A stretch of DNA of 29,366 nt from a virus. Shown one piece after another: positions 1,132 through 29,366 of the stretch. The position numbers and the translations under genes were made by a program. The stretch lies in IMG/VR virus record IMGVR_UViG_3300042301_000259, positions 1 to 29,366 of that record. The stretch is one strand, 5' to 3'. The first letter of the stretch is position 1. Each line of letters begins with the position of its first letter. The notes under the pieces are model-generated. The model did no database searches. It worked only from the letters and a program-made list of their open reading frames with translations, and was not told the origin of the DNA.

Positions 1132-1163
1132 CAAATATACAAATTAATTGTACTTATTTACAA
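1132..1163 (-). promoter_or_regulatory. Bacteroidota-type housekeeping promoter for the ERF/exonuclease operon
   Basis: On the minus strand TATATTTG (1132-1139) matches the -7 consensus TAnnTTTG exactly. A TTG at 1161-1163 lies 21 nt upstream, inside the known 17-23 nt spacing to the -33 box. It sits in the 35-bp gap before the ERF start, with the -33 box inside the 3' end of the preceding nuclease gene. It probably drives the ERF-exonuclease-SSB-sigma early run. Confidence 0.6.
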
Positions 1164-4319: not shown

Positions 4320-4343
4320 AAAAAAGAGGAGCCGAAGCCCCTC
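4319..4343 (-). terminator. Intrinsic terminator with TTCG tetraloop
   Basis: Read on the minus strand, a 7-bp GC-rich stem (4337-4343 with 4326-4332, one G-U pair) closes a TTCG loop and is followed by six T residues (4325-4320). It lies 22 bp beyond the stop of the DnaA-like gene and ends that operon before the repeat cluster. Confidence 0.85.
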
Positions 4344-6468: not shown

Positions 6469-6632
6469 CGGTTAGCGTTTAGGATGGTTAAAAAATCTTC
6501 GGTGTTATCTAATGCTGTCTGAGTCATTTCCTCAGTAGCTTCAACAAGCAGCTGCTCTAGGAATAAAGCAAGTACCTCTGCATTGTTTTCATGTGTCTTG
6601 ATAAAGTCAAGGGCTCTTTCAAACTGTTTCAT
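6465..6632 (-). CDS. Small helical hypothetical protein
   Basis: A 55-aa acidic helical protein (MKQFERALDFIKTHENN, then EVLALFLEQLLVEATEEM and NTEDFLTILNANR). It is the first gene after the promoter at 6660-6688 and so heads the operon that runs down through the HNH and DnaA-like genes to the terminator at 4319. It overlaps the next gene by ATGA. No domain is recognised. Confidence 0.6.
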   Translation of the reverse strand: MKQFERALDFIKTHENNAEVLALFLEQLLVEATEEMTQTALDNTEDFLTILNANR

Positions 6633-6659: not shown

Positions 6660-6688
6660 CAAAGATATATAAAGTTTCATATATGCAA
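6660..6688 (-). promoter_or_regulatory. Bacteroidota-type promoter of the 6.6-4.3 kb operon
   Basis: On the minus strand TATCTTTG (6660-6667) matches TAnnTTTG exactly, with a TTG (6686-6688) 18 nt upstream. The 137-bp gap 6633-6769 holds this promoter, a 7-3-7 inverted repeat over the -33 box and a 9-1-9 palindrome further upstream. The transcript start should fall about 25 nt before the ATG at 6632. Confidence 0.65.
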
Positions 6689-6699
6689 ACATTTTGCAT
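6683..6699. promoter_or_regulatory. Inverted repeat over the -33 box, candidate operator
   Basis: ATGCAAA (6683-6689) and TTTGCAT (6693-6699) form a 7-3-7 inverted repeat. The -33 TTG of the adjoining promoter lies inside the left arm, so a dimeric repressor bound here would block RNA polymerase. Confidence 0.5.
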
Positions 6700-11325: not shown

Positions 11326-11356
11326 ACCTATATTAATTTAGCTTTGTCAAATGTTC
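11326..11356 (-). promoter_or_regulatory. Late promoter motif, copy 1 (portal-lysis unit)
   Basis: On the minus strand GAACA (11352-11356), 17 nt, then AATATAGGT (11326-11334) abutting the GTG start. A terminator ends two bases upstream (11359), so one unit closes and the next opens here. Confidence 0.7.
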
Positions 11357-13935: not shown

Positions 13936-13965
13936 ACCTATATTAAAAAAAACGTATATTTGTTC
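13936..13965 (-). promoter_or_regulatory. Late promoter motif, copy 2 (capsid unit)
   Basis: On the minus strand GAACA (13961-13965), 16 nt, then AATATAGGT (13936-13944), followed by AG and the ATG at 13933. It is the one copy with a 16-nt spacer and a 2-nt gap to the start. Its -35-like part overlaps the -7 box of the divergent plus-strand promoter. Confidence 0.65.
13955..13962 (+). promoter_or_regulatory. Host-type -7 box for the plus-strand gene pair
   Basis: TATATTTG matches TAnnTTTG exactly and ends 15 bases before the ATG at 13978. The nearest upstream TTG (13927-13929) is 25 nt away, slightly too far, so the -33 box is uncertain. The box shares bases with the -35-like part of the opposing late promoter. 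Confidence 0.45.
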
Positions 13966-13977
13966 AAAAATTATAAC

Positions 13978-14526
13978 ATGATAACTATCTTAAACAAGGA
14001 AATTCCTAACCAAATTGAAGAGCTCAACATTGAGCAATTCGAGGCAATTACTGAAATCAATAACAATCAGGAACTTGACCCCATTGATAAGCACCTCCAG
14101 GTGTTTGCTTACCTTGGCATCCCTGAGTCTGAGTTCTGGGACTATGATGTGGCTGATTTTGTGGGGATGGTAAAAGAATTTAACTCAGCAGAACGCAAAG
14201 AATATCCAACTATTGAGGAGCTTGAGATTGAGGGCTACATCTACAAAGCACAAATGAAGTTAACTGTACGTGATACTAAGATGATTGAGAAAGTAGCACT
14301 AAGAAAAGAGAAAGGATATATCTCTGAGATGTTAGCCATCATGTTCAAACGTGAAGACCTTACACCCACTGAGCACTACACCGATGCACACATCAAGCAG
14401 AAAGCAAAGCTCATCCGTAAATTGAATGCTGGTATCTCTATTCCATACATGATGTTTATTGCACAAAAAATAGGACAACAAGCTAATGATCAAGCTACCC
14501 AAGCAGTGGAGCCAAGTAACGCTTGA
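13978..14526 (+). CDS. Putative assembly chaperone-like protein, first of a paralogous plus-strand pair
   Basis: A 182-aa protein starting MITILNKEIPNQIEEL. Its layout parallels the next gene: a P-x(4)-L-x-x-EQF opening (NIEQFEAITEI), a DVADFVGMVKEF block matching that protein's DVDELAELVNE, then a K-rich strand before an AIMFKRED segment (AILYRQT in the partner). This pair sits beside capsid and tail genes and resembles tail-assembly-chaperone pairs, but I see no decisive motif. The upstream in-frame Met at 13927 would overlap the divergent late promoter, so I chose 13978, just after the promoter. With its partner it is the only gene read on the plus strand. Confidence 0.55.
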   Translation: MITILNKEIPNQIEELNIEQFEAITEINNNQELDPIDKHLQVFAYLGIPESEFWDYDVADFVGMVKEFNSAERKEYPTIEELEIEGYIYKAQMKLTVRDTKMIEKVALRKEKGYISEMLAIMFKREDLTPTEHYTDAHIKQKAKLIRKLNAGISIPYMMFIAQKIGQQANDQATQAVEPSNA

Positions 14527-16030: not shown

Positions 16031-17169
16031 TATAGTGATGTTATTGTTTCCCAAGCTGATGCAGTTCTAACACATAGCTTGTTTAATGTTGTATCATATA
16101 CCACTAAGCCTGCAGCAGGTGAAGCTATTGCATTCTTTTGTACTGTTGTCATTCGTGGAGGTAGGAATCCTTTTGTAGTTGAATCAATGGCTAATTGTGC
16201 GGATGCATAATATGTACTTGCACCAAAAGTTATGTTTGTTGTATCTCTATCACGTACATAATAAATATCCCCTGTCCTATTAAATAATTTTAAATTATAA
16301 TAAGTTCCATCATTAAAAACAGAGTGCCAAAAAAAAGTTGAATTACCAACTCTCCAAGTAAAACCAATAGAACCACCCGTTCCTTGACCATTTGTTCTAG
16401 CCGTAAACCCGTTCACAGTATTAGTTCCCGAAGTGGCATTAGCCATGTGTCCAATGGCTTCCGCAGTAGTTGTAGTCATCAAAGTACCAACACTATTGTT
16501 TTGCAATGTGCCTTGTATTCCTATTGCACCGTATGCAATCCCCGTGCTACTTAATGAACCTAATAAAACTAAAGCCCTTGTTCCCGTGTCCGTTGTGGAT
16601 ATACCATTTAATAAAATTGAATAGGTACTTGTTGGCGTACTATTTGTAAATTGTGCTTGACCTGTAATTTGCCCACTAACCCTCGCAGTGCCATTCACAT
16701 CTAACTTAAAGCCTGCATTAGTTGTAGTACCTATCCCTACATTTCCATTAGAAAAGAAACGGCTTGATGTAGTGCCTGCTATGGTTAAATCAAACCCACC
16801 TTGAGTTAATGTTCTCGCAGCAGTCAGTGTGCCATTTGCAGTGTAGATGTTACTGCCTGATACAGTCAAATCTCCACTACCTAGTATTGAGCTACCATTG
16901 ATTGTCTTAATGTTGGTAGCACTAACAAGAGTATCCTGCTTAGCATTCAAGGCACTCTGTAAGTCTGTTTGACTAGATAGTGTTCCTGTGATACTCCCCC
17001 AGGTTGCACCACCCGATGCTGCTGCAATTATCTGAGCACCTGTAATGGCTGTGTTAACAGGTAAGCCACCCACTATAGAAGTACATTCTAGTAAGTCAGT
17101 AGGCTGTAGGTTTCCGGTATGCGGTGTGAGGATAGGTCTCCAATCTCCCCACCAATTTGGTGCACTCAT
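16030..17169 (-). CDS. Tail fibre / receptor-binding protein
   Basis: A 379-aa fibre-like protein. Residues 56-82 contain the fibre repeat WGSITGTLSSQTDLQSALNA; a TINGSSILGSGDLTV strand follows (89-103); residues 143-164 hold NVGIGTTT and KLDVNGTARV, the trimeric-fibre motif common in Bacteroidota phages and surface proteins. Residues 165-320 are Gly/Thr/Asn-rich and look like a receptor-binding part. The end (GFLPPRMTTVQKNAI, GLVVYDTTLNKLCV) is a conserved C-terminal cap. There is no S74 autocleaving chaperone. The middle of the gene uses codons less like its neighbours, as expected for an exchanged host-range segment. It heads a late unit. Confidence 0.75.
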   Translation of the reverse strand: MSAPNWWGDWRPILTPHTGNLQPTDLLECTSIVGGLPVNTAITGAQIIAAASGGATWGSITGTLSSQTDLQSALNAKQDTLVSATNIKTINGSSILGSGDLTVSGSNIYTANGTLTAARTLTQGGFDLTIAGTTSSRFFSNGNVGIGTTTNAGFKLDVNGTARVSGQITGQAQFTNSTPTSTYSILLNGISTTDTGTRALVLLGSLSSTGIAYGAIGIQGTLQNNSVGTLMTTTTAEAIGHMANATSGTNTVNGFTARTNGQGTGGSIGFTWRVGNSTFFWHSVFNDGTYYNLKLFNRTGDIYYVRDRDTTNITFGASTYYASAQLAIDSTTKGFLPPRMTTVQKNAIASPAAGLVVYDTTLNKLCVRTASAWETITSL

Positions 17170-17200
17170 ACCTATATTAGTTTAAGCCTCCGAAATGTTT
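17170..17200 (-). promoter_or_regulatory. Late promoter motif, copy 3 (tail-fibre unit)
   Basis: On the minus strand AAACA (17196-17200), 17 nt, then AATATAGGT (17170-17178) abutting the ATG at 17169. The -35-like part overlaps the stop codon of the tail terminator gene. Confidence 0.7.
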
Positions 17201-22679: not shown

Positions 22680-24138
22680 TGACCATGTCGTTATTAGCTA
22701 GCTTAATAGTAATGCTTTGCTTGATTAAGTTCTTATTCCGTTGCTTGTAGTACTCATAGGTAGAGTTCACTATGTTGCAGCTGATATACTCAGTGCTTGC
22801 TGGGATGTCACAGCTCTCATCGTAGTTACTTATCTTAAAGTAAGTGTATGGTGAGCTGATTAACTCAGTAAAGTAGGTAGCCATCTCCTGAGTCATCCAA
22901 TCAGTATTCAGGTCAATAGTTTCCTCCACTGTTACATAGCTGTTGATGTACCCTCTATCTATTAGGTCATAGGTCCACTCAGTGCTAGCTATCTTGCCGA
23001 GCACATCCATGTTGTACTGTTCACGCTGAACGTTACCCCTTTGGTATGCTCTACCTGTGAATGCAAAGCTACCCCATGAGCCATAGCGGTCTAGGAATAT
23101 AATGCTGTACTCCTGCATCTGTGTTCTGCGATCTATGTTCACTCGGTAGGACTGTGTTACCTGTGAGCCATTGTGCTCATAGTAGTACTCATACCACTGA
23201 GTGGTAGGCTTAATCAATGGCAGTGAGCCTGAGACTACAGTCAAGGTGCCTGCGTTGTTAGGACCTACTGCGTTACCTGTTATGTGGTCAGTGGCTCCAA
23301 CACTCTTTCTCAACACATCACCCCCATCATTGGTAAATACTATCCTGTGCGTTCCTCCAGGTATAGCACCATAGACTGCGTTCATCCATAGGTCCTGAGA
23401 TAAGGTAGCGTAGAAGTTGGTAGCAGGAATGGAGGTAAGGAACTTGTCAGTGTTACTGCTTAAGTCATAGTTATTCTCATCCCATGATGGCCATTGAGTC
23501 CAAGGAAGTGCACCATTGAATACAAAATTATTCAGGTCATTGATGATATTGTACGTAGTAGTTTTTCTCCCATCTGCATAGGTGATGGCCACATCCTTGT
23601 TAGCATTCGTTATGGAGCTCCATAGGAAGTTAATCACAATGTATGTACTGGTAGCTACTAGCACAGTGTACAGTCCGTCAAAGTTAGCATTGGCTGTACC
23701 TGCTCCTGTTTGAGTTAAGACTATCTGATCACCCACCACAAATGAGTTAGTGCCATTCAGCTGTACTTTACCTGCATAGGGTGCAGTCACATACTGAGTC
23801 ATGGCTGAGGTGAATGTGGTAGTAGTTAGATATTCCTCACCTACCTTAAGGTCATACTTGTAATGGCTATTAGGTGCATCGTACACTGTGGTGTTGGTAG
23901 GGAATAGGTCATAGCTTACATAGGCTTGAAGTAGCTTAGTTAAATCTATCTCACCATACCCTGTAGAGTAAACAGGTAGCACCCTGTACTCAGCTATCTG
24001 AGTGGCAGTGCCTGACTCATACACCTCAAAGATATACTTAAACCCTGCTAGGTTTTTGTTGGTGCTGTCGTAGATATACTTGACAGGGTTGTATGCTGGA
24101 GTGAGTCGCTGAGGTGCAGCCTTTAATGTCATTGCCAT
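22672..24138 (-). CDS. Tail/baseplate protein
   Basis: A 488-aa protein, beta-rich and aromatic, heading a late transcription unit. The N-terminus MAMTLKAAPQRLTPAYNPVK, then FKYIFEVYESGTATQIAEY, is characteristic of tail proteins next to terminase in Bacteroidota siphophages, and GRAYQRGNVQREQYNMDV is another marker segment. The short repeat VGDQIVLTQTGAGTANANFD resembles a small beta-barrel insertion. Two Met codons (1 and 3) are near the promoter motif, and the second would suit a start shifted downstream. Function is inferred from context. Confidence 0.55.
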   Translation of the reverse strand: MAMTLKAAPQRLTPAYNPVKYIYDSTNKNLAGFKYIFEVYESGTATQIAEYRVLPVYSTGYGEIDLTKLLQAYVSYDLFPTNTTVYDAPNSHYKYDLKVGEEYLTTTTFTSAMTQYVTAPYAGKVQLNGTNSFVVGDQIVLTQTGAGTANANFDGLYTVLVATSTYIVINFLWSSITNANKDVAITYADGRKTTTYNIINDLNNFVFNGALPWTQWPSWDENNYDLSSNTDKFLTSIPATNFYATLSQDLWMNAVYGAIPGGTHRIVFTNDGGDVLRKSVGATDHITGNAVGPNNAGTLTVVSGSLPLIKPTTQWYEYYYEHNGSQVTQSYRVNIDRRTQMQEYSIIFLDRYGSWGSFAFTGRAYQRGNVQREQYNMDVLGKIASTEWTYDLIDRGYINSYVTVEETIDLNTDWMTQEMATYFTELISSPYTYFKISNYDESCDIPASTEYISCNIVNSTYEYYKQRNKNLIKQSITIKLANNDMVNG

Positions 24139-24169
24139 ACCTATATTATTCTATGCAGGCAAAGTGTTT
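24139..24169 (-). promoter_or_regulatory. Late promoter motif, copy 4 (tail unit)
   Basis: On the minus strand AAACA (24165-24169), 17 nt, then AATATAGGT (24139-24147) abutting the ATG at 24138. It fills the 31-bp gap after the large terminase gene. Confidence 0.7.
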
Positions 24170-26065: not shown

Positions 26066-26219
26066 ATTCGTATTCTTGTGTAAATAACCATGCATAGTAT
26101 AATACAATCCATAGGCCAAAAGCTTTCATTGCCATTGCAGTGTTCTCCCTGACTAGAAAGAATGCACCTGTTAATGCAGTGAATGTAGCAATGATGCTAA
26201 TTATTTGAGAAAGTCTCAT
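26043..26219 (-). CDS. 58-residue membrane protein, first late gene
   Basis: A short protein with two transmembrane segments: SQIISIIATFTALTGAFFLV (4-23) and AFGLWIVLYYAWLF (33-46), then an acidic tail (EYEYDKESKE). Its ATG directly follows late promoter copy 5, within the 3' end of the sigma-factor gene, making it the first gene of the terminase unit. Function unknown; it could be an accessory holin-like protein. Confidence 0.6.
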   Translation of the reverse strand: MRLSQIISIIATFTALTGAFFLVRENTAMAMKAFGLWIVLYYAWLFTQEYEYDKESKE

Positions 26220-26742
26220 ACCTATATTGTAGATTGCGTAAATTTTGTTTAATTTCAGTTATCAGGTAGTGAGCTGAGGTAACCGGTATCCCAAAGTACT
26301 TAGCCATCCCTCTTGCTGTGGTGTATCCTTTGTCAATGTATGCCTCAAATACTATCCTGTGCACGTTATCACTTATTTGTGATCTATATATTTCAATCAT
26401 CCCCTTGTGAGTGCTGTATATCTTATCCTCAAGTATCTTAGCCTGTAGGTCCTGCTCATCATCTGCCTCATCATTGGGCTCATACTCCATGGATGTGACC
26501 CTGTCATCCCTATGGCTCAATGATGTGTTCCATAGTATCTGATATTTGATGGTGTTTAGCAGGTAACTCTTCACCTGGTCTTCTGTATCAGCATCCTCAT
26601 TGATGGTTAACACATGCAGGTAACTGTTATTAATTACCGTATCTGCCTCAATCTTACTCCCTAGCTTAGTTAGAAAGTACAGCGTGTAAGCCCTTACCTC
26701 ATGGTAATGGTTATTGATGTACTTGTCTAAGAGCTTTTTCAT
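26197..26742 (-). CDS. ECF-like phage sigma factor (putative late-gene regulator)
   Basis: A 181-aa protein with the two-domain shape of an ECF sigma factor. Region 2: DKYINNHYHEVRAYTLYFL (6-24) and EADTVINNSYLHVLTI (32-47), then EDQVKSYLLNTIKYQILW (54-71). Region 4: a helix-turn-helix around YTTARGMAKYFGIPVTSAHYL (140-160). It has an acidic linker between them. It would recruit host RNA polymerase to phage promoters. I chose 26742 (MKKLLDKYIN) because the upstream part of the longer frame overlaps a neighbour and lacks sigma character. It ends an early run of small genes and is immediately followed by a late promoter copy. Low sequence similarity makes this a good but not certain assignment. 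Confidence 0.65.
   Translation of the reverse strand: MKKLLDKYINNHYHEVRAYTLYFLTKLGSKIEADTVINNSYLHVLTINEDADTEDQVKSYLLNTIKYQILWNTSLSHRDDRVTSMEYEPNDEADDEQDLQAKILEDKIYSTHKGMIEIYRSQISDNVHRIVFEAYIDKGYTTARGMAKYFGIPVTSAHYLITEIKQNLRNLQYRYETFSNN
26220..26250 (-). promoter_or_regulatory. Late promoter motif, copy 5 (terminase unit), inside the sigma-factor gene
   Basis: On the minus strand AAACA (26246-26250), 17 nt, then AATATAGGT (26220-26228) abutting the ATG at 26219. It lies in the last codons of the sigma-factor gene, where it also encodes part of LQYRYE, so the sequence serves two roles. Confidence 0.65.
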
Positions 26743-26929
26743 ACCATACCATAAAATCTTTGTACCATACCTTTCGCCTAACCGATGCACAGAAGCATTC
26801 CCTAGGCTGTGGACCATCGTACTTTTGACGTATCTTGTAGAGCTGCACGCATGAGTGCTTGGAGTACTTTACAGCATCCGCAGTAGCATCTATCTTATCT
26901 ACTATCTCTATGTCAGTTTGTTCAAACAT
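26711..26929 (-). CDS. Small hypothetical protein
   Basis: A 72-aa basic protein (MFEQTDIEIVDKIDATADAV, HSCVQLYKIRQKYD, ECFCASVRRKVWYKDFMVWY). It has three cysteines and aromatic-rich C-terminal segments. I chose the Met at 26929 because the longer frame overlaps the membrane gene upstream. It overlaps the sigma factor start by 32 bp. No domain is recognised. Confidence 0.6.
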   Translation of the reverse strand: MFEQTDIEIVDKIDATADAVKYSKHSCVQLYKIRQKYDGPQPRECFCASVRRKVWYKDFMVWYEKALRQVHQ

Positions 26930-27156
26930 AATTCTAAAATGTAGGCACCCAAGGCTGCTTGACATGCTAGGATAAAATCTTGATGCCATGCCAATGTAAG
27001 CCAAAAGGCCACACACTTACTACAGCTCAACGCATCTAGTAGTTGTATGGCCCATGTGCCAGGTATAAAGGACATGTAAATCCTAGTAATAGTTGCTTGC
27101 AGTGGTTCAAAATTGCACCACCACCAAGCTATAGGTATGATAAGTAAGAGTTCCAT
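26908..27156 (-). CDS. Small membrane protein
   Basis: An 82-aa hydrophobic protein. It has an N-terminal membrane segment MELLLIIPIAWWW and two further ones (AFWLTLAWHQDFILACQAAL region), with a C-x-x-C (CSKC) between. It may be an envelope-modifying protein. A TATATTTG box (27162-27169) lies six bases before its start inside the HTH gene, so separate transcription is possible. Confidence 0.55.
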   Translation of the reverse strand: MELLLIIPIAWWWCNFEPLQATITRIYMSFIPGTWAIQLLDALSCSKCVAFWLTLAWHQDFILACQAALGAYILELCLNKLT

Positions 27157-27365
27157 TTAGACAAATATACTCTAAAAAATGAGTCATATATCTCAGTGGT
27201 CACATTTCTGCCCTGCATGAAGCGGTATAGCTTAGCATAGTTCACCCCCATATCCTCAGATAGATGGGTTAGTTTATATCTCTTGGATAGCTTGCCCCGT
27301 ATCTCTTTACGCATCCATTCGGATAGCTGTTGGTCCTCAGAAAGGTAAATCGTCACTGCTCTCAT
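27129..27365 (-). CDS. Small helix-turn-helix protein
   Basis: A 78-aa protein starting MRAVTIYLSEDQQLSEWMR. Residues 31-62 (KLTHLSEDMGVNYAKLYRF, then MQGRNVTTEIYD) have a Cro/XRE-like helix-turn-helix, with the recognition helix around VNYAKLYRF. It is a candidate regulator of early promoters such as the palindromic sites at 6683-6730. The Met at 27365 is preferred over 27404 because it begins the conserved-looking region and overlaps only the acidic tail of the SSB gene. Confidence 0.6.
   Translation of the reverse strand: MRAVTIYLSEDQQLSEWMRKEIRGKLSKRYKLTHLSEDMGVNYAKLYRFMQGRNVTTEIYDSFFRVYLSKWNSYLSYL
27162..27169 (-). promoter_or_regulatory. Possible internal -7 box
   Basis: On the minus strand TATATTTG matches TAnnTTTG and ends five bases before the ATG of the membrane-protein gene. 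No TTG lies 17-23 nt upstream, and the box is within the coding region of the HTH gene, so this is only a weak promoter candidate. Confidence 0.25.
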
Positions 27366-27693
27366 CGGTAGTATCAAAAGTTTTACGTAATTTATCAACA
27401 GCACTATTCTCAGTACTTGAGCTCAAGCTCATAGTCCATGCTTCAATTGAGTTGAAGTACTTAATGGTACCATCCTGTGCCTCCCATCTTCGACCTCTTA
27501 GGTTGTATTGCACCTCTACCACCTCACCTGTTTTAAGGTTGTTTGCTAGGTCACATTTGTCCTGGGTTAATTGGAACGTAACGTACTGAGGGTACTCATC
27601 TTGAGACTTCAGGGTTACTTCTCTTTTCTTGAATTTGTCAGAAACTGACGTTGTTGGTGTGATGAACACTACCTCTCCTTTGAATTTACTCAT
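27337..27693 (-). CDS. Single-stranded DNA-binding protein, DUF3127 family
   Basis: A 118-aa OB-fold-like protein. MSKFKGEVVFITPTTSVSD, then FKKREVTLKS, EYPQYVTFQLTQDKCDL, VQYNLRGRRWEAQDG and IKYFNSIEAW follow the DUF3127 pattern seen throughout Bacteroidota. The C-terminus ends in an acidic tip (ESSDDLPF) like the DDDIPF tip of bacterial SSB, which binds partner proteins. It therefore probably coats single-stranded DNA for the replication and ERF/exonuclease systems. DUF3127 is formally uncharacterised; the SSB role is strongly suggested by fold, tip and context. Confidence 0.8.
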   Translation of the reverse strand: MSKFKGEVVFITPTTSVSDKFKKREVTLKSQDEYPQYVTFQLTQDKCDLANNLKTGEVVEVQYNLRGRRWEAQDGTIKYFNSIEAWTMSLSSSTENSAVDKLRKTFDTTDESSDDLPF

Positions 27694-29063: not shown

Positions 29064-29366
29064 TTATTCTTTAATTGTGTTAATACTTCGTTGTAAAATT
29101 CAGTAGCCAAGATAAGCCTCTCAGCCATCTGAATCTCAAGTTCGTTATCTCTTTCAAATCGAATCGATGTGATACGCTTAGATGGCTCAATATGCTCTAC
29201 ATAATGAATGGATGCATTCTCATACTCACCTAATAGCTTAGGTGAAGTGGAAACCATCACATATGATAGTTCGAAATAAGGTCTATCATATAACCACATA
29301 TAAGCACGTCCTTGCCATTCATAATCTGATATGTCTTTTAGCTCATAGCTAGTCGCAGGAAATGTG
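29060..29366 (-). CDS. RecB/YqaJ-like PD-(D/E)XK exonuclease, C-terminal part
   Basis: This is the C-terminal part of the nuclease whose N-terminal part is at 1-569. The last 252 bases of the window repeat its middle, and joining them gives one continuous frame ending here with LATEFYNEVLTQLKNK. The Met at 29299 is internal (residue 129), not a start. Relative to the other copy this version changes three residues (E to K, K to N, I to L) in the region after the catalytic core. It overlaps the following gene by ATGA (29060-29063). Confidence 0.8.
   Translation of the reverse strand, partial: TFPATSYELKDISDYEWQGRAYMWLYDRPYFELSYVMVSTSPKLLGEYENASIHYVEHIEPSKRITSIRFERDNELEIQMAERLILATEFYNEVLTQLKNK
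29115..29366. repeat. Terminal overlap of a circular assembly, right copy
   Basis: This is the partner of bases 1-252. The last 127 bases are exact; the first 125 carry 6 substitutions, three of which change the nuclease protein. The gene reads through unbroken when the copies are merged. Confidence 0.85.

Follow-up and report, generated by a model that had tools for sequence, protein, structure and literature searches.

The window analysed here, a virus record of 29,366 bases, probably encodes a small early-to-late switch in which an ECF-type sigma factor, made early, directs the host core RNA polymerase to five late promoters (P1 to P5), with P1 located in the last codons of the sigma gene itself. 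In the proposed relay, host RNA polymerase carrying sigmaA would transcribe the early genes, including the sigma gene, from host-type promoters. The phage sigma would then join the host core enzyme and direct it to late promoters of the form RAACA-N16..18-YAATATAGGT. P1 to P5 would thereby open the units for terminase, tail and tape measure, tail fibre, protease/capsid, and portal/lysis, respectively. Binding of the sigma to RNA polymerase, the temporal order, the start sites and the relay as a whole are predictions, and recognition of the motif by the sigma protein is suggested by their co-occurrence and position. One sigma and five promoters form a complete predicted switch that can be tested in vitro.

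The window ends in a repeat of 252 bases at 98% identity, so the map is probably circular, at about 29.1 kb. The repeated ends (1–252 and 29115–29366) differ by six mismatches, which suggests that this circular map was assembled from a strain mixture. The minus strand carries nearly all genes, in the order small early genes, sigma, terminase, tail, fibre, protease/capsid, portal, lysis and replication, and round again. The terminase unit 3' of the sigma gene contains, in this order, two small genes, TerS (phrog_606, E=1e-15) and TerL (phrog_2, E=1.5e-40). No DNA match to the window was found among 50,697 phage records, and the phage collection contained no true relative of the sigma. TerL relatives in this collection reached only about 33% identity, with Parabacteroides, Flavobacterium and Bacteroides phages at the top of the list, and the primase-helicase of the window has a BT4734-like domain. 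From these gene likenesses, a Bacteroidota host is likely. A scan of bacterial genomes found no relatives and therefore gave no clue to the host or to a prophage. Site conservation was determined by reading 21 near-complete relative genomes in full; these relatives are not independent samples.

The 181-aa protein is very probably a diverged ECF-type sigma factor with sigma2 and sigma4 regions, as the initial annotation had proposed. Its ORF is exact, from the ATG at 26742 to the stop at 26199–26197, and the start codon is common to 29 aligned relatives of at least 64% identity. An NCBIfam search aligned residues 12–169 with positions 6–159 of the 162 in TIGR02985, the Bacteroidota ECF sigma profile (E=3.5e-4), and genome-wide the protein was the only TIGR02985 match (E=7.3e-6). 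ECF models also matched up to 19 of the 29 relatives, and in the sigma2 half they align to residues 12–109 and beyond. The profile search thus returned a full-length ECF match, but no model reached its curated cut-off (20.8 bits for TIGR02985, against 126.4), and Pfam and PHROGs gave no match. These scores were not treated as disqualifying because gp36 of phiEco32 fails its cut-offs too, with similar profile scores of 23.3 and 19.6 bits. Profile-profile comparison by hhalign with a small 13-member ECF alignment was in register and scored 17.3 against a shuffled maximum of 12.9, but at a probability of only about 1%. Searches against the sequences of solved structures, with one protein or profiles as query, gave chance matches only. 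With 181 aa in two helical domains, the protein has the size of an ECF sigma (about 160–200 aa, no sigma1.1 or sigma3).

Structure prediction for regions 2 and 4 pointed in the same direction. In the AlphaFold model of the whole protein (mean pLDDT 74, pTM 0.42), a low-confidence linker at residues 77–93 joins the two helical domains. The top Foldseek matches in the PDB were nearly all sigma factors, mostly of the ECF type, led by 9n9q_C from an RNA-guided transcription complex (E=1.3e-3) and by 6dv9_F, Mtb sigma L (E=5.7e-3). Phage ECF sigmas were among the matches in BFVD. When the N-terminal 85 residues were modelled alone (pLDDT 88), three helices superposed on sigma2, with a TMq of 0.61 and an rmsd of 2.0 to 9n9q_C at a Foldseek E-value of 2.0, which is not significant, and a value of 0.54 to sigmaE region 2, likewise with E-values that are not significant. 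The sigma4 part forms a predicted helix-turn-helix (helices 126–136, 143–150 and 154–179) and resembles region 4 of sigma L (3hug; TMt about 0.6, prob 0.98).

Table 1. Predicted features of the early-to-late switch and neighbouring elements in the window.
Feature	Position	Strand	Basis
Predicted ECF-type sigma factor gene, 181 aa	26197..26742	-	TIGR02985 match, Foldseek, 20/20 relatives scanned
Small Cys-containing gene overlapping the sigma start	26711..26926	-	20/20 relatives; ATG about 26926 chosen by eye; longest ORF from GTG 27016
82-aa gene, first of the sigma unit	26908..27156	-	20/20 relatives
Host-type -7 box (TATATTTG) of the sigma unit g26908-g26711-sigma, 5 nt before ATG	27162..27169	-	relatives
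Predicted late promoter P1, in last sigma codons, reads into terminase unit	26220..26249	-	motif match, frozen codons
Predicted late promoter P2, before 488-aa virion/tail gene at 24138	24139..24168	-	motif, conservation
Predicted late promoter P3, before tail-protein-like gene at 17169	17170..17199	-	motif, conservation
Predicted late promoter P4, before protease/capsid genes	13936..13964	-	motif; Peptidase_S78_2 E=1.2e-8
Host-type -7 box TATATTTG for two plus-strand genes, inside P4	13955..13962	+	relatives
Predicted late promoter P5, before portal and lysis genes	11326..11355	-	motif, conservation
Intrinsic terminator directly upstream of P5	11363..11388	-	11-bp stem and T tract
Host-type early promoter, TTTG then TATCTTTG	6660..6689	-	same sequence in about a dozen relatives
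Strong intrinsic terminator between two early units	4327..4342	-	5/8 genomes scanned
Host-type -7 box before Erf-like recombinase gene	1132..1139	-	conserved in most relatives

The five copies of the late motif are two-part sites, AACA-N16..18-AATATAGGT, all on the minus (late) strand and at transcription-unit starts. The search pattern in the window was AACA-N{15,18}-AATATAGGT, for which the chance expectation was 0 and 300 shuffles gave 0 matches. The units 3' of P1 to P5 are those of the terminase, the 488-aa virion protein and tape measure, the tail-fibre-like gene, the protease/capsid genes and the portal/lysis genes. All five of the late-gene motifs reported earlier were present in 21/21 near-complete relatives. 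Among the 23 records scanned, the motif occurred in every one, mostly as 4–5 copies on one strand, and the reversed control pattern gave 0. Across 58 distinct sites, a pyrimidine always precedes AATATAGGT and a purine always precedes AACA, and most positions of the spacer are near random.

A pattern scan of IMG/VR gave at least 80 loci. Among the matches listed, 67 of 80 carry genes of this phage family, and the remaining 13 are single matches, 11 of which do not have the conserved pyrimidine. As far as seen among the matches listed, the motif appears confined to this phage family. Some of the matches belong to a clade in which the sigma is only about 49–50% identical and the spacing is 18. 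The predicted switch belongs to a widely sampled uncultured phage family that has no close match in the cultured phage collection.

We predict that the two-box motif is a late promoter because its distance to the start codon varies, its internal spacing is fixed and P5 directly follows a conserved terminator. Among 97 sites, the gap between motif and start codon was 0 nt in 73, 1–2 nt in 18 and 11 nt in 6, while the internal box spacing remained at 16–18. All 21 relatives have the hairpin and T run upstream of P5, and their arms differ by compensating changes; the motif immediately after a terminator marks where one transcription unit gives way to the next. Since the motif ends at, or 1–2 nt before, the start codon, the late mRNAs should be leaderless or nearly so. 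In Flavobacterium psychrophilum, just 5.5% of the mRNAs mapped are leaderless (PMC9723704). With the motif ending at -1, the distance from its -10-like box to the start would be about 2 nt shorter than that of the host sigmaA box. A scan for sigma70-type promoters gave no excess over shuffles. TATAGG resembles the T7 promoter, and a T7-like polymerase was also considered; this candidate was rejected, as none of the large proteins scanned matched an RNA polymerase family.

P4 overlaps a divergent host-type box on the plus strand (13936–13978). This TATATTTG box inside P4 was found in 20/21 genomes, and in the other one (G012) the same bases were seen on the other strand. In a distant clade, the late -35 of P4 reads TACA, not AACA, with AATATAGGT and the host box both kept. 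P4 and the divergent host-type promoter may form a mutually exclusive switch, in which use of one should hinder the other.

The final sigma codons contain the whole of P1 (26249–26220), and the next start codon, at 26219, follows it immediately. The description of a late promoter copy overlapping the final codons of the sigma gene, directly before the terminase unit, was confirmed, and every relative with at least 64% identity has kept P1. The further claim that coding and promoter roles share the same bases is supported by synonymous constraint. In 69 representative sigma genes, the motif-box codons 165, 166 and 172–175 are near-invariant (6/6 at 95% or more), compared with 1/78 frozen codons for conserved residues elsewhere in the gene when the upstream gene overlap is set aside (p=2e-8). 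The codons between the P1 boxes vary more freely.

The overlap of sigma gene and promoter, although common, is not obligatory. The clade of about 50% identity still has P1, although its -35 is weakened in some members; in most of them the -10 half is still within the sigma gene, and in some (e.g., L198) both halves are. In L136 and L203, the promoter is located about 43 nt after the sigma stop codon, and the otherwise nearly invariant QYRYE tail is gone. Thus, what stays constant is where the promoter lies with respect to the terminase, and the sigma C-terminus takes its sequence from the promoter. Judged from these genomes, the sigma/P1 overlap appears frequent but dispensable. It offers a clear case in which regulatory bases fix the C-terminal sequence of a protein, together with a natural lineage where the two are separate. 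P1 had been called the downstream promoter of the sigma gene's own; it would in fact drive the terminase unit 3' of the sigma, and it points away from the sigma gene, which leaves no direct self-activation. In L136 and L203, the sigma is 49% identical to that of the window but TerL is 83% identical, and the core of the late motif is nearly unchanged. The sigma in this lineage would have either evolved much faster or been exchanged. The combined proposition, that the whole late programme runs on leaderless mRNAs from private sigma promoters, that the bases of P1 dictate QYRYE and that the P4 overlap could shut off the opposite genes, is one to which we give an even chance.

On the early side, eleven small same-strand ORFs precede the sigma gene, from 29299, in agreement with its description as the last of about a dozen small early genes. 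The gene also has a conserved host-type promoter of its own two genes upstream, which the initial annotation had missed. Each of the 21 relatives has a TAnnTTTG box (TATATTTG or TACATTTG) ahead of the second gene upstream of the sigma, at 4–5 nt from its ATG (8 nt in one genome), so the sigma need not depend on the long early run. The mRNA of the sigma unit should be leaderless too, because start sites in F. johnsoniae lie 4–5 nt after the host -7 box (PMC6847099). The two genes that are always upstream next to the sigma gene (26711–26926 and 26908–27156) are candidates for a sigma co-factor or a host polymerase modifier. Similar host-type boxes were found before the primase-helicase in many relatives and before the small early gene at 6632.

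Other explanations were considered for both the protein and the motif. The protein could be a late activator of the RinA/ArpU kind, which would recruit the host holoenzyme through a sigma4-like DNA-binding end and would not itself be a sigma. RinA-type genes tend to sit just before the terminase, and region 4 of the relatives of about 50% identity matches the RinA model TIGR01636 phage_rinA at E=0.0015–0.088. However, the window protein has no match to this model. The ECF models cover residues 12–169, with the sigma2 half included, and it is this half that superposes on sigma2 when modelled alone. Furthermore, the two boxes of the motif are spaced as for a sigma factor, and a host -7 box is absent from it. 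An activator of this kind is unlikely, and an ECF-type sigma remains the preferred reading of the protein.

With co-occurrence and position as the evidence for recognition by the sigma protein, the promoter might instead be read by another factor, either a host ECF sigma or another phage protein; the conserved small gene at 26711–26926 beside the sigma is also a candidate. We consider this quite improbable, as the ECF motif mapped in F. psychrophilum contains a CGT box (PMC9723704) and differs from the late motif, the proteins scanned matched no further sigma or RNA polymerase model, and nearly all IMG/VR matches listed are phages of this family. Least probable of all is that the motif is a translation-initiation signal. 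The start codon follows within 0–2 nt in 91/97 sites, as such a signal would, but of about 40 genes only 5, each the first of a unit, are preceded by the motif, which has a G at -3 where the Flavobacterium start context has A (PMC6847099). This interpretation was rejected on the six sites with an 11-nt gap to the ATG, the AACA box held at a fixed 16–18 nt upstream across an unconserved spacer, and the terminator that P5 abuts.

The closest known parallel to the proposed sigma-directed switch is phiEco32. Binding of its gp36 to E. coli RNA polymerase has been demonstrated (PMC7881722), and the phiEco32-type ECF sigma redirects the host enzyme to phage promoters of the middle and late classes (PMC4281155, PMC4331800). 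Like the window sigma, gp36 and its relatives in SU10, 7-11 and GAP52 (Kuravirus-type) are phage ECF-type sigmas far from the curated families. The two proteins have no recognisable similarity (BLASTP E=0.1); the window sigma is thus proposed to work like gp36, and membership in its family is not claimed. The window phage shares with the phiEco32 type a common motif upstream of late genes, in 21/21 relatives. The phiEco32 motif, tAATGTATAtA, is a single box located 6–8 nt before the start (PMC4281155), whereas that of the window phage is built of two boxes next to start codons, with one copy inside the end of the sigma gene and directed away from it. In phiEco32, a copy of the motif upstream of gene 40 is directed towards gene 36, which itself contains no copy.

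CrAss-like phages (e.g., cr50_1 and cr124_1) are likewise attributed to Bacteroidota hosts and carry an ECF-type sigma gene. In contrast to the window sigma, the sigmas of these two exceed the TIGR02937 cut-off, with 108 and 90 bits, and their genomes are of about 100 kb. The Bacteroidota ECF sigmas of TIGR02985 are the best-matching sequence family, with a full-length collinear match, but a true member scores 159 bits against 20.8 for the window sigma, and no anti-sigma gene was identified in the window. The late or middle sigmas T4 gp55 and SPO1 gp28/gp34 also switch the host polymerase to later phage genes, with sigma types and promoter motifs that differ from those of the window phage.

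Phage ECF sigmas with late promoters (phiEco32 type) and ECF-like sigmas in crAss-like phages are already known. In the literature searched, no papers on phage ECF sigmas in Bacteroidota phages and no link of a crAss-like ECF sigma to a late motif were found. Not seen described there were three features: a motif of two boxes next to start codons, a promoter within the sigma gene, and a late promoter that overlaps a divergent host-type one. The sigma/motif pair could serve as an orthogonal expression tool for laboratory strains of Bacteroidota.

Two further features were noted in the early region. A small gene of 91 aa (27129–27404) had the look of a helix-turn-helix protein by eye, without a family match. 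The stretch 27337–27693 showed a weak match to the single-stranded DNA-binding protein model TIGR00621 (E=3.8e-4).
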